Below are positions 4,008 to 12,660 of a stretch of DNA of 64,000 nucleotides, piece after piece. This DNA is from Xestospongia muta. Lineage: Eukaryota; Porifera; Demospongiae; Haplosclerida; Petrosiidae. A program made the position numbers and the translations under genes. The stretch's first letter is position 1. Each line of letters starts with the position of its first letter. The DNA lies in NCBI GenBank assembly GCA_963693285.1, contig OY848918.1:21959484-22023483 (forward strand), given 5' to 3'. The notes under the pieces were generated by a model that saw only the letters and a program-made list of their open reading frames with translations, did not search any database and had not been told where the DNA came from.

Positions 4008-7000
4008 ATGGCAAATAGAACAGTCTCTTTCAAGAATGATGTTGCAGTTATCAGAAAGGCTATGAGTGATAGCATCACTTCCAGATATGGTGCACTTCGT
4101 GATGCACTTGAGAGTTTGATGGAATCCTTTACTGCACATATGTTACAATATGAGCTTATAGACGAAGATGTTGCAGAAAAAAAAAATTTCCATCATATAA
4201 TGGGGCAGTTTCTATCAGGATTGGATATGAAAGACCAGATACCAGATCTAGAAGAACACTGTCGGACATTTGCTGATGCCCTTACAGATTTAGGAGGTGA
4301 AGCAACAAACAAGATTGCCAGTGAATTAAACAATGAATGGGATATAATGACATCACAACAGCCATCGGTTAGTGTTAAATGTGCACATACTACTTTCTCA
4401 TTTTGTTATAATATTTTGTTACAAATAAAATAGACATTTTGCTTGTATGAAAGTTCTAGTAAAGATTAGTAGGTTTGTCATGAAAATGATAACTAACCAC
4501 TTCTCTGCATGTGTGTAATAAATTATAAAGAGCAATATTATGATTACAGAAACTGTCTCTTAAATATATATTCAGTTTGAGCAGCTGCATAATGCAAAAC
4601 AGTGAAAAAAACAAAAGAACTAAGGACAGATTTCAAAGCTAACTAAATATTATATGCATTGATGCTTAAAGGCATGAGTTGATTTAATTCATCAATTTCA
4701 ATTGTTGCACGTAACAAAATTGAAGAAAATGGACATGCATCCACCTATATACATGTATACACACATACATATATATATAATATTATACACCTGTATATAC
4801 AATGTGGCCCAAAACAGTTACTTGGCACACTTTGCGTATCAGGTAGTAATAATATGAAGCCATATAGTCTCTTAGCAACTACAACCATATATACATAAGA
4901 TTATGTACTATGTGTTGTAGCAGTGTTAGCAAAGAATTCTATGTCAATAATTAAGATAAGTATTATTATTATGTAGTTTTAACATGTATCTTTTTAAATA
5001 GACCAAACCATCAAAAAATGAAGTACAAATTGAAAGTATGAAAACAATAGAAGAGGTGAGAGGAGTTAAATAAGAAAACACCTATAATCACACAAGAATA
5101 CAAGTCGTAAATACAAGAACACATTGCACACAAAAGAAGCAGTTTGGCTTTTAGATATCTATATCAGAGGATAATCCTGTTCTTACATGTGTAATTGCTT
5201 TTTTATAGGAGGAACAGACTGAACATTGGATTAAACAAGGAGAGCAAGCAAGTAGCAACGAAACACAAATTCATGTAGTGATAGGATTGGGAATTCATTA
5301 CGTATTGACAACATCACTGCCTACTAACCCTGGACAATTTGACGACGAGCAAAGTAAATTGTCTTAACTTACTTGTTTATTAATAAGCATGGTAGTACTT
5401 ATACATAGAGGTGATCAGGAAAAAAATGACAACCATATATTGTCTACTGTATATGAAATGATAGCCTCAAGTGCAATCTTACAGGTGTTTACAAGCACCT
5501 ACCTTTCCAAGTATTTTCAAACCCAAACAGACTTCTGGTTTAGCCTGACAATATAGTTGAGGTAGAAACCAGCAAGTGTGGTCAGACAGCCTAGCTGTCT
5601 TCTAGCATTCTATAGTCTGTGGCATTAGCATCTTTAAAAAACTATTATAGGATAATTTTTTGCAATTATTCTATTAAAACTCTGATATTAATTAACTGAT
5701 CTATTTTTACTGATAGGTATAAGAAAAGTTGCTGTGACTCCAAAGTGGCTACATAAAAAAATCCGCAAGCAGAGCTATACAGTTTCAGTGTTACCAGCTT
5801 TACTAATGTCTGGAGGTTTACCAAACAGCGGGAAAAGTGAAGCCATTCAACTACTACTTAAGTTACAATCAATACCATCTCCTGGCTTTTCTCATTACGA
5901 AAGCATAGGAACAGAACTCACATCTAATAGTCCTTTTCAAGCACACCGGGTTGATGATAAGTACCTCTATTATTATGGCTTCTATTCTGGATTTCGCAAA
6001 ATTTTGGCTTTTGGATTAAAATGGGCATGTGACTTTAGACTTGATGTAGGGCAGGAGAATACCTTTGAAGATTCAAAACTACAACAACATCTACTCAATA
6101 TAGTGGGGTGCCTAAAAGATACCATGCAGCAAACCGAAAGAATGGGCTTGAAAAAAATCAAAAATATAATGAAAGGAGCAAGTCTCATTAAAGTCTGGGA
6201 TTTAACTTTCAACAGCATAACACTCGAGTTCCTTAAAAAATTCAATGGCCATTTATACAACAGCTACATGTGGTTGTTCACTGATATAGAGCGTGACAGA
6301 CAACAATTACATAGGCCACTATCACCAGAAGAAGGAAATACAAACATGCGACGATCACGACTGGAATACCTTGTTAGCTCAAGTAGACTAAGCAGTCATT
6401 TAAAAGAAAAAAGAAGAGACACAAGCTTGATCTTTGCTAAGTACAGCGATATACGACCAAGAAGTCAGGGTGATCAGCGGAGGGACCAACACAAGAAACA
6501 GAAAAGTCAAGGTGACCAACTAACAAAGTTACAAAGGGAATGCCAATATGTAGCACCTCAATTGGGCGTACAAAGCCTGATAAACGAAAATATAATACCA
6601 ATTAACTTTGAAAAAACAAAATGCTCCTATTTATTAAATTGTCTCAAAAAACAAATTACAAGACCTTATTATGATATCCCTCTATCATATATATTCCTTA
6701 GAGGAGCACTAGATTTAGAAGAGACAATTTTTTTGACACGTGACAAGATTAAAAACATGGCTGAGGAGTGCAACATCGATGGAAAAAAGTTTGAAGAGTT
6801 TTGCCAATTCTTCACATCTTTTGGGAGCATACTTGATGTCAGTTTCATTAATTCACATTGTAAAGTTGTGATTATTAAACCAAATAAGTTTCTAGCAACA
6901 CTTGCTAAAGCATTCAACCCAAATGAAATAAAAAAAGAAAGACCGGCACTACAAATGGATGGCATCATTACTGAGGAATTAGCTCGTACCCTCTTTGGTG

Positions 7001-10000: not shown

Positions 10001-12660
10001 GATTATGAAGCAGCCTTTGTGTGTGTCAATTTTTCAACACATCTATTTTCTTTGGTTATCTATCACAGTTTCTAGCATCTACATGAATTCTGTTTACAAT
10101 TAATGTGAACTTTAAATTATTGTAATTTGCAAGTTTTGGGAAACAATAACTGTAAACAATGTGCTTAAGTCACTTCATATAAATATTCTTTTTCTATCTG
10201 TGATATTTTAGAAAAACCTCAAACACTTGATTTACTTAGACAAATAGCAAGTATTAATAACAAATGGTGGGAGATTGGAATAGAGCTTCAACTATCCCAT
10301 GATTTTTTGGAAGGCTTACAACAAAAACCATACACTACCATGATTAAACTCCATCATGTAATTAGTGAATGGATGAAGAATGCACAGTCAGTTACCTGGG
10401 AAACAGTGATTAATGCAACTGAGGGACCTATTGTAAATGATAAAAATAAAGCTAATGAAATATGTAAATACCTTGCTAACCAAAGACACACATAAAATAA
10501 ACCTCATAATGCCAATTACAAGTTTTTAGCAATTCTTCCTTTCATATATAATTATATAAATTTTCTTCTATTACACATATTATTGCTATGATTATGATTG
10601 TATCTACCACTTTTTTAAATATTCATTTGCAAATAAACTATAGGTATAAAAGCAAAGTTTATTTTGCTTTCACTAGTATGCTAACATATATGAATGCTTT
10701 GACTTTTAGTAAAACTTTATTGAATTAATCCAAAAACAACAAAAAAGCCAAATTCAGTGCTCCATATATAATTTAAGAGCTTCAATAAATGCCGCATAAT
10801 AATTAATACTGAATTACATACTATAAAATCAGGTGTATCAATTATGTTTGACTATACCCCTTCAAATGTCAATGAATAACGTCTTATCTTGACCTTCCTT
10901 CTAAACCTACAGAGAAGCCTTCCACTTCATTAAATAAAACTGAAGAAATGTGTGAAAATGTTGCCAAAGGTCTCATTGACTCCACAAGTGAAGATGGTAA
11001 AGTTCAGATTAAACCTGACACCAAAAATGCTGAAGTTCAATTTGATCACTTTTTTCCATTGCTAGGTATCTATTACCTCTATTTTAAAACAATTAATCCA
11101 CTTTCTTGTTCTCTTTGACCTAAAGATAATCTACACAATGTCTATATTGCTGGACAAAAGCTCTTTATCATCCAAGGAAACCTTTTTCAATCGTTTCACT
11201 GGGATGAATGTGGTCTAAGACTGTCTTGTCCACAAGGAGCTTTATCATCATCAGATGAGAGATGTGAGGTTGCTATAGTAGCACTAGCTGGTGGTCAGTT
11301 TAAACTTCCAGAGAGAACTAAAGTAGTTAGCGCTATATATGCCATCTCTGTGAGCAAAGAACTCCTCAAACCACTAACTCTGGAGTTACAACACTGTGTA
11401 GCTCTTGAAACAAAAACTGAAGCTGACTCTCTCAAATTTGTTAGAGCTCCTCTTGTAGGATCTGATTCAAACACTGAGTTTACAATCATGGAAGGAGGAG
11501 AGTTTTGTCCTCATAGTTGGTATGGCTCAATTACTCGTTTTCACTTTTGCAAATGTGCTGTGATAGAAGAGGAAGTGCAATCAACAAAGCAAAGCACAGG
11601 TATATTATCATACAATAGTATTATATATAAGCACAGAGTTTTTGTTTGGTACATAACAAATACTACTATAGCTGCTGGTCGCATTGCTTATGTTTGCAAA
11701 ATTTATTATCAAGAGATAGCTCCTTTGGAATGGTTGGTAAAGTTGTGTATTGTGAGAAGTCTCAAAGCCCTTGAAGAGGTATTCATTATTTGTACATATG
11801 CACTAAATATTACTTTGTCATTTTAGTACATGAGAAAAGAAGAGCCTCAAGCTGTTTCTCGTTGGTTTGATAATGTGGTGCCTTCAGGAGATAAGCTTAA
11901 ATTTGTACTCAAAGATGATGTTCAGGAACTTTATCAGGGATGGAAAATATACCAATGTTCAGATTCTGAGGTCAGTGATTTTCTATAGAATACAAGACTT
12001 TTCATGTCATGATTCCTCTTTAGTTTGAATACAATTTCATTGATATGTTTGTCAGTGACGAACTGCCTAGCCCACCATCTTGCTCAATGATGGTAAAAGC
12101 AGAAAACAATGCTAAAACAAAAGAAGTTTTCTACTATCCAGTTCCATTACATGGTGTGAAAAAGCCACAGAAGATATTTATTTACTTATCAAAGGGAATT
12201 AGCAATCCAGATCTAGGTAATAGTACATACCTCTACTGTTTTTCTTTATTTTATATTTAATGTGGTAGGTGTCCAGAATAAAGAAATAGGTTATGTGCAA
12301 TTTGATGTGGAGAAGGCTAGTAAAGTAGCTCAAGAAGTCCTTAACAGTTATTCTGGCTCCTTGGGTAAATTTTTACACGAAGCACCTCTAAAAGAAGTGG
12401 CACAACACATGTTTTCTGCTAATTTAATATCAAATGCTGTCAATGAATCACCAAATTATAATAATCTGATGAGTGAATATAAAGGTATGTTAGACTTATC
12501 TAGTAATGAGGCTGAGTTTATGAAATACTGTCGATCATTTATAAATATTCTGTCTGATCGAGGAGGGCCCTTGCAAAGAATTAGTAGAAAAATAGCCAAT
12601 GACTGGACCAGTGAAATTATGAAACAACTCCATGTAAATTTAAAGTTCACAGATGAATAA
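4008..12660 (+). CDS. Gene A: Death-fold/P-loop NTPase-COR/Death/ZU5/UPA-like receptor-type protein
   Basis: Nineteen exons join in consistent phase to about 1865 codons. Order: helical Death-fold-like domain (residues 1-118); linker; P-loop NTPase (GLPNSGKS at about 220-227, later IKVWDLTFN and [10 protein letters not shown] strands); COR-like winged-helix region ([14 protein letters not shown], about 500-700); Death domain (about 829-924); ZU5 (about 963-1113); glycine-zipper repeat (about 1113-1165); UPA-like (1201-1290); linker; second ZU5 (about 1430-1588); second UPA-like (to about 1736); and a C-terminal domain resembling the N-terminal one. An alternative exon at 10212 would end the protein in a second Death domain (1472 codons). 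The ATG at 4008 follows the duplicated EPRS flank. Known roles of these domains (nucleotide-switched scaffolds, Death-fold assembly) suggest innate-immune or cell-death signalling. That role is inferred. No NKxD-type guanine motif is visible, so nucleotide specificity is open. Confidence 0.8.
8833..8940 (+). repeat. 15-bp minisatellite encoding a glycine zipper
   Basis: Seven tandem copies of a 15-bp unit in frame with gene A encode repeats of Ala-Leu-Val-Gly-Gly. The stretch is hydrophobic with glycines at regular spacing and follows IVVCAAAIGVATAIGG at the end of the first ZU5 domain. It could form a membrane-inserting or amyloid-like segment. A cryptic donor GTATAGT at about 8784 could splice it out in the right phase, but that would cut off the last ZU5 strand. 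The splice at GTCAGT (9045) keeps both. Confidence 0.85.
10212..10495 (+). other. Alternative terminal Death-domain exon of gene A
   Basis: This exon begins after an AG at 10210-10211 in phase 1, coding Glu-Lys-Pro and then a compact Death domain with signatures such as WWEIGIELQL and ISEWMKNAQS. It ends in TAA at 10493-10495, directly followed by an AATAAA signal at 10496-10501. The next downstream exon (10913) starts in the same phase, also with Glu-Lys-Pro, and leads to the second ZU5. The two exons therefore look like mutually exclusive choices after the exon ending at 9883: an early-polyadenylated Death form and a long ZU5/UPA form. Confidence 0.65.

Follow-up and report, generated by a model that had tools for sequence, protein, structure and literature searches.

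The locus at 4008-12660 of the window (the whole stretch of Xestospongia muta DNA that was analysed, 64,000 nucleotides) raises the question of how a switch NTPase with a COR-like part and ZU5-UPA-Death modules came to stand in one row, and whether they form one protein. Roco proteins (LRRK2, DAPK1) and ZU5-UPA-Death proteins (PIDD, NLRP1) have been studied as separate switches. The original prediction joined all domains into a single chain of 19 exons and 1865 residues with two ZU5-UPA units. Its ATG at 4008, its GT-AG introns and its closing phases were re-derived from the sequence, and exons 1-13 followed by 10913-12660 indeed read in phase to one final stop, but this chain has 1858 residues and not 1865.

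On splice and frame reading, 4008-10495 closes as one gene of 1465 residues without skipping any exon. This predicted Roco-type gene, gene A, lies on the forward strand and consists of 14 exons (4008-4367, 5002-5055, 5209-5353, 5717-7608, 7656-7689, 7793-8080, 8140-8208, 8256-8300, 8352-9044, 9090-9208, 9262-9408, 9504-9720, 9833-9883 and 10212-10495), open in phase and with GT-AG introns. Its product is read as a CARD-like domain, then Roc-COR, a helical domain and ZU5, after which come a glycine-rich hydrophobic stretch, a region at the UPA position and a putative Death domain; exon 14 has its own TAA, directly after which the AATAAA starts at 10496. Both fall at the position of about 10500 where the original prediction had expected the chain to break if it was not one gene. 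Because of this stop and AATAAA, a protein with two ZU5-UPA units is not supported as the main product, as it would have to skip the Death exon that carries them; as main product it was rejected on these signals and on the terminal exon being kept in R1, an upstream neighbour.

Exon 4 (5717-7608, forward strand) is modelled as a tandem, with a Roc G-domain and then COR in a single chain. The structure model had a pLDDT of 84.8 and a pTM of 0.88, and all 16 Foldseek matches at E≤0.001 were Roco proteins, so that by model and fold search the NTPase with a COR-like part is Roc and the tandem Roc-COR. An NTPase of unknown kind is ruled out by this fold. The P-loop reads GLPNSGKS; gene A has the motif GxxxxGK[ST], as do 19 of 23 sequences in the alignment, and the G3 motif DxxG occurs in none of the 23, gene A included. 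The missing DxxG weakens the claim of a normal GTPase and leaves that of a Roc-COR fold intact. Since the Roc keeps its P-loop but is without the G3 glycine, its nucleotide hydrolysis is probably weak or unusual. Exon 1 (4008-4367, forward strand) encodes a six-helix N-terminal domain called CARD-like with reservations, its nearest structures being CARDs with weak Foldseek support. Alignment profiles of Roc-COR, the CARD-like domain, Death and exon 6 gave nothing usable against PDB sequences.

Exon 9 (8352-9044, forward strand) carries the ZU5, then F1103|S1104 as a candidate site of cleavage, its codons starting at 8768, and then a hydrophobic GxxxG-rich stretch. Pfam ZU5 matches were below the cut-off for the gene A copy (E 0.06 in a 503-aa piece, 0.018 as exon 9 alone) and for that of the downstream unit B (E 0.0015), with 15.7 and 19.2 bits for the respective ZU5 exons at a cut-off of 21. 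By transitive homology the assignment of exon 9 as ZU5 holds, because C8:1930866-1931291, 60% identical to the gene A ZU5, overlaps a Pfam ZU5 match of 26.8 bits, over the cut-off. At the end of the ZU5 of gene A stands an F-S pair, F1103-S1104. It is kept at this site in 15 of 18 distinct loci, in an alignment of ZU5 loci found by tblastn with the gene A or B ZU5 that leaves out the Pfam ZU5 loci L001, L002, L007 and L008 and the C1 tiles. By motif script the pair was kept in 55 of 59 located ZU5 homologues, the script having put the site of P0081 in the wrong place; in the seven of 66 homologues that it left unlocated, inspection by eye gave three F-S, one L-S and three ending before the site. 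The site reads LKQF|SLLGIVV in gene A and SPSF|SLMGILLR in CARD8. Gene A carries QFS instead of HFS, and B carries HFC; the residue preceding F is described as of little importance in CARD8 and Nup98 (PMC3210808). Self-cleavage at F1103|S1104 is predicted for gene A as a candidate.

The region of exons 10-12 (9090-9720, forward strand) is at the UPA position, and is named by position only: no Pfam match to UPA was found for it at E≤10. It can be aligned to the equivalent region of B and of the family loci L034 and L035. Exon 6 (7793-8080, forward strand), originally labelled Death, encodes a helical-looking domain with no Pfam match and no usable PDB-sequence match; a homologous exon is present in R1, X', L034 and L035. 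The domain chain first proposed is upheld for Roc-COR and ZU5, but its UPA and exon-6 Death are without profile support. As for the putative terminal Death domain of exon 14 (10212-10495, forward strand), Pfam Death was matched by two of nine aligned terminal-domain rows, that of gene A not among them; the best Pfam match of gene A itself was DUF1885, under the cut-off, and the relatives in the alignment are 26-36% identical. The R1 copy of this exon, 17 kb upstream, has 94% protein identity and the same stop, and a recount of the 'DD2' segment gave 10 base and six residue differences over 282 bases.

The other break-point suggested beforehand, at about 8300, is the junction of the tandem duplication that made the fusion; exon 8 (8256-8300) spans it in frame. 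Self-comparison breaks at 8296, inside exon 8, on both sides: -8860 to -6400 matched 8296-10811 at 94.3% identity, and -4937 to 8296 matched 14247-27337 at 96.3% (negative positions lie upstream of the window). The exon is composite, with A' sequence on the left of the junction and the exon end and donor of R1 on the right. A', the unfused sister of gene A (23049-27380, forward strand; 98.2% over 7232 columns of 1080-8296), ends past its equivalents of exons 6-8 with 20 residues and its own stop. R1 reads from an exon of its own into the same ZU5 exon as gene A, and all six ZU5-to-Death exons are common to both; their splice sites are undamaged, and the indels between them measure 45 and 3 bases. 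The sequence indicates that gene A arose by a tandem duplication of some 19 kb, in which the exons from ZU5 to Death of the upstream neighbour R1 were placed in frame behind the 3' end of a Roc-COR gene, that both parents survive, as A' (at 23049) and as R1 (upstream), and that the fusion is recent.

Gene A is a member of a family that is large in this genome. With exon 4 as query, at least 70 matches were found (70 of 70 scored, out of 138 candidates), five of the 70 with inner stops. A ZU5 on the same strand within 5 kb was located downstream of 17 and upstream of seven of these exon-4-type exons, with none on the opposite strand; downstream of the other 53 of 70, ZU5 was not detected within this distance. 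One related Roc-COR gene, X' (14698-19042, forward strand, from the tblastn map), had no ZU5 behind it. In L034 and L035 a compact series runs from Roc-COR through an exon-6-type domain, a linker, ZU5 and the UPA position to a CARD-like domain. Two loci other than that of gene A, each read over its whole length, have Roc-COR and then ZU5, so the combination is older than the gene A fusion; this recurrence and the number of exon-4 matches bear out the expectation of a lineage-expanded, receptor-like family with switch NTPase, COR, ZU5 and Death-type domains. Unit B (10913-11065, 11126-11599, 11672-11778, 11827-11970, 12024-12216 and 12269-12660, forward strand) is open in phase and runs from a linker through ZU5 and a UPA-position region to a CARD-like domain; should it be an independent gene, its ATG is the one at 10948. 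The closest relatives of its ZU5 all lie in a single cluster, at C2:6.30-6.52 Mb, and are 72-81% identical to it, and its first exon in part matches an internal exon of L034. Judged from this sequence, B makes up the 3' half of a further member of the family, and is either a unit by itself or an alternative end.

As an alternative end, B would be reached if exon 13 were spliced to 10913 and the Death exon skipped; the resulting long isoform would have about 1858 residues and two ZU5-UPA units. Both junctions have phase 1, no stop interrupts the chain, B is open over six exons despite its absent 5' half, and its first exon begins EKPST where exon 14 begins EKPQT. However, an accidental phase match has a one-in-three chance, the terminal exon to be skipped is kept in R1, stop included, and the tblastn map has no B behind R1's copy of the region; we regard such an isoform as unlikely. 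It is highly improbable that the ZU5-to-Death exons are unjoined to Roc-COR in RNA and are neighbours in phase by chance. A', X and X' do end without ZU5, as most exon-4-type exons are without a detected ZU5 within 5 kb, but in gene A the junction lies within a single composite exon, exon 8, and the gap between Roc-COR and ZU5 in L034 is only about 770 bases, filled by exon-6-type and linker exons.

The copies seen here are 94-99.5% identical, a range that two haplotypes could also reach in a variable species, and the duplication might then be two haplotypes joined end to end by the assembly. This is very unlikely, given that neither the window nor the 40 kb upstream of it contains an N, that B stands in one copy only and that the exon formed at the junction is in frame and has a working donor. 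Two A/A' cluster members, R1's Roc-COR and both ZU5 exons are also present on a public contig of 286529 bases, and of 13 proteins checked, five, all on this contig, were identical to this array, although the contig may share the same reads and is therefore not independent support. Gene A and A' differ by two synonymous and eight nonsynonymous changes, R1 and gene A by seven and 16, and dN/dS gave no sign of strong constraint in either comparison. With a very young fusion and a dN/dS near 1 between A and A', gene A could be real but functionless, a chimaera on its way out; we consider this quite improbable, since the gene is still open over 14 exons with its indels in frame, and the architecture that it recreated recurs elsewhere. 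The reading of gene A as a Roco-type fusion by tandem duplication, acting through an intracellular cleaved-receptor mechanism, is rather probable as a whole.

By analogy with known systems, gene A most probably encodes a death or immune receptor that acts inside the cell. Roc-COR would, we infer, be its dimerising, nucleotide-binding module. The ZU5 would hold the UPA-Death part in check, as in UNC5b, and a cut between F1103 and S1104, like those known from PIDD, CARD8 and NLRP1, would produce a glycine zipper-UPA-Death fragment. On activation this fragment would be freed, would oligomerise, perhaps at a membrane, and would recruit Death or CARD partners. A testable output is suggested by the glycine-rich, hydrophobic stretch that comes immediately after this predicted cut. 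A more specific proposal is tentative: gene A may be a Roco counterpart of NLRP1/CARD8, with a Roc-COR sensor and a ZU5 that cuts itself at F|S to free a glycine-zipper membrane segment with UPA and a Death/CARD-like piece, which would insert in the membrane and nucleate a death complex, the family renewing its output ends by in-frame tandem-duplication fusions of neighbours. A family with Roco and ZU5-UPA-Death parts in a single protein would show that Roc-COR can occupy the sensor position of an inflammasome-like receptor. The family offers a natural way to ask for the role of Roc-COR without a following kinase, and the fusion, resolved to the base with both parents, is a clear case of recent receptor-gene fusion by tandem duplication.

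No Roc-COR-ZU5 protein was found in the published literature searched, where ROCO and ZU5 are named together in PMC8195603 only, and there apart; supplements with Amphimedon architectures lay outside this search. By fold, gene A shares its Roc-COR tandem with the Roco proteins LRRK1, LRRK2, DAPK1, MFHAS1 and Chlorobium tepidum Roco, but it has no detected LRR or kinase, no DxxG, and a ZU5-Death output. In PIDD, CARD8 and NLRP1, ZU5-UPA or FIIND is followed by Death or CARD, similar to the gene A order of ZU5, UPA position and Death, and an F-S pair stands at the cut position, as in gene A (as described in PMC3210808). Their sensor is LRR or NACHT-LRR, whereas that of gene A is Roc-COR; gene A further has the hydrophobic glycine-rich stretch right after F|S, and its UPA is one of position only. 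UNC5b has the same order of ZU5, UPA and Death, but is a membrane receptor with Leu where Phe stands in gene A (as given in PMC3210808). The NACHT-ZU5 genes of early animals likewise combine a switch NTPase with ZU5, but the NTPase described for them is NACHT and not Roc-COR (PMC12909245). An LRR-ZU5-kinase protein of amphioxus and other combinations place ZU5 in shuffled immune-type proteins, as gene A does; Roc-COR with ZU5 is not among the amphioxus combinations described in PMC9573974. The ROCO genes of brown algae are described as an expanded family with exon shuffling and as proposed immune receptors; the exons shuffled there are those of the LRR, whereas in the gene A family they are the 3' output exons (PMC11378527).

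Gene A was read from the sequence as 14 exons on the forward strand (4008-10495), which encode 1465 residues and close with GT-AG introns. Exon 14 (10212-10495) carries a Death-type domain and a TAA stop codon, with AATAAA directly behind. The original prediction had extended the protein to 1865 residues over 19 exons; on re-derivation that chain is in phase, at 1858 residues, but exists only if the terminal Death exon at 10212-10495 is left out and exon 13 is joined to 10913, the first exon of unit B (10913-12660, +).

Six Roc-COR modules are located on a single strand in the window and the 40 kb upstream. 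Self-comparison, in window coordinates with upstream positions negative, showed a tandem duplication with two arms: -8860..-6400 matches 8296..10811 with 94.3% identity and -4937..8296 matches 14247..27337 with 96.3% identity, placing the new junction at 8296. Around this position gene A has the sequence of its unfused sister A' (23049-27380, +) on the left and that of the upstream gene R1 on the right, within a single exon and in frame. In A' the corresponding place is 27337, after which the gene continues to its own stop; R1 reads ...WNNPNMS up to a donor, followed by its ZU5 exon. Because the junction is not needed to make sense of either A' or R1, the fused gene is the derived form, and gene A is, as judged from sequence, a fusion of an A'-type left part and an R1-type right part. 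In the related Roc-COR genes X and X', too, no ZU5 follows Roc-COR. R1 and gene A have kept all six of their shared exons, the splice sites of these are intact, and the indels amount to 45 and 3 bases; too few substitutions were counted to reveal constraint. A 15-base repeat at 8830-8940 encoding (GALVG)n lies within the ZU5 exon (exon 9), the R1 copy being 45 bases shorter, in frame.

R1 runs from Roc-COR and the exon-6-type domain through coiled-coil-like exons to five exons of Death type, followed by ZU5, the UPA position, Death and a stop. The five Death-type exons stand in tandem, separated by coiled-coil-like spacers (C2:21947982-21950494, positions -11501 to -8989), and form repeats of about 510-550 bases, and both repeats scanned passed Pfam Death (31.2 and 38.3 bits).

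In L034 and L035, two other loci that were read completely, Roc-COR is followed in compact order by an exon-6-type domain, a linker exon, ZU5, the UPA position and a C-terminal CARD-like domain. The linker exon of L034 is 59% identical over 22 residues to the first exon of B, and the nearest ZU5 relatives of B among the matches listed (72-81%) all fall within the C2:6.30-6.52 Mb cluster. This order and these matches indicate that B is the 3' half of a gene of this kind. As L034 and L035 carry Roc-COR followed by ZU5, the combination is older than the gene A fusion. KCIQCDHWN in L035 matches KCIQCDYWN in R1, and the P-loop of L035 has lost its lysine. Three telomere-like CCCTAAA copies (12771-12791) lie directly behind unit B.

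Among the other features of the window are pieces at 2975-3405 (-) and 29053-29424 (-) that match HGTP anticodon-binding, with 24.4 and 28.4 bits, and WHEP-TRS, with 32.6 bits; they probably come from a glutamyl-prolyl-tRNA synthetase gene, part of which lies within the duplicated segment. In a 1210-residue open frame (34340-37969, -) long Ser/Pro-rich repeats precede a rhodopsin-type 7TM domain (96.1 bits), and a 699-residue open frame (44376-46472, +) scores 143.8 bits for an adaptor-complex medium-subunit domain.

Contig C2, on which the window is located 122 kb short of the contig's end, belongs to a genome of 158 Mb in 28 contigs. In this genome the Roc-COR exon of gene A (exon 4, 5717-7608) gave at least 70 matches (138 candidates, 70 of them scored), Pfam COR-A at least 150 (of 261) and the ZU5 exons of gene A and B at least 150 each (of 434 and 379). 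Among the matches listed, 17/70 exon-4-type exons had a ZU5 exon on their own strand no more than 5 kb downstream, 7/70 had one upstream and 0/70 had one on the opposite strand. For 217 merged COR exons these numbers were 24 downstream, 9 upstream, and 0 and 0 on the opposite strand. Because the genes stand in arrays, what is found upstream serves as the fairer baseline. Most of these exons, among the matches listed, had no ZU5 detected nearby, and 7 of the 150 COR-A matches listed had one within 5 kb downstream. Further COR-A arrays were found at, among others, C5:6.28-6.91 Mb, C1:8.19-9.05 Mb, C6:0.80-0.91 Mb, C10:1.72-1.89 Mb and C12:1.51-1.70 Mb; the Roco expansion reaches well past the window's own family.

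CARD8 is cleaved at SPSF|SLMGILLR, and the residue preceding F is of little importance in CARD8 and Nup98, according to the accessible part of PMC3210808. Gene A reads LKQF|SLLGIVV at the candidate site, with S as residue 1104. Of 18 distinct loci, 15 have F-S, while B and L034 read F-C and L016 reads S-S; F-S is also present in 55 of the 59 homologues located (out of 66, gene A and R1 included). In the clade of gene A a hydrophobic, GxxxG-bearing stretch follows immediately: in a 19-residue window hydrophobicity exceeded 2.3 in 5/5 A-type loci and 1.2 in 0/8 others. Of the homologues scored, 53/56 exceeded 1.6 (P0081 among them being a misplaced match), and 43 had at least two GxxxG. Eight further small stretches (six scored, two by eye) all showed F-S and then a hydrophobic run, one of them (L039) with no GxxxG. 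One homologue carries the database label PF13441, a glycine-zipper family; when this homologue was scanned, two families of glycine-zipper type matched at E about 0.02, below the cut-off. The glycine-rich stretch may insert into a membrane.

Upon the demonstrated anatomy, fusion and family of gene A, a mechanism can be proposed with steps drawn from the biology of Roco, PIDD, CARD8, NLRP1 and UNC5b. By analogy, Roc-COR would act as a dimer loaded with nucleotide and ZU5 would exert restraint; cleavage at F|S would set free a glycine-zipper-UPA-Death piece, and Death or CARD partners would be recruited. The expansion and domain content make an immune role conceivable. In the main texts of 5.39 million open-access papers, ROCO and ZU5 as whole words co-occur only in PMC8195603, the accessible part of which mentions them apart. 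NACHT-ZU5 genes are described for early animals in the accessible part of PMC12909245.
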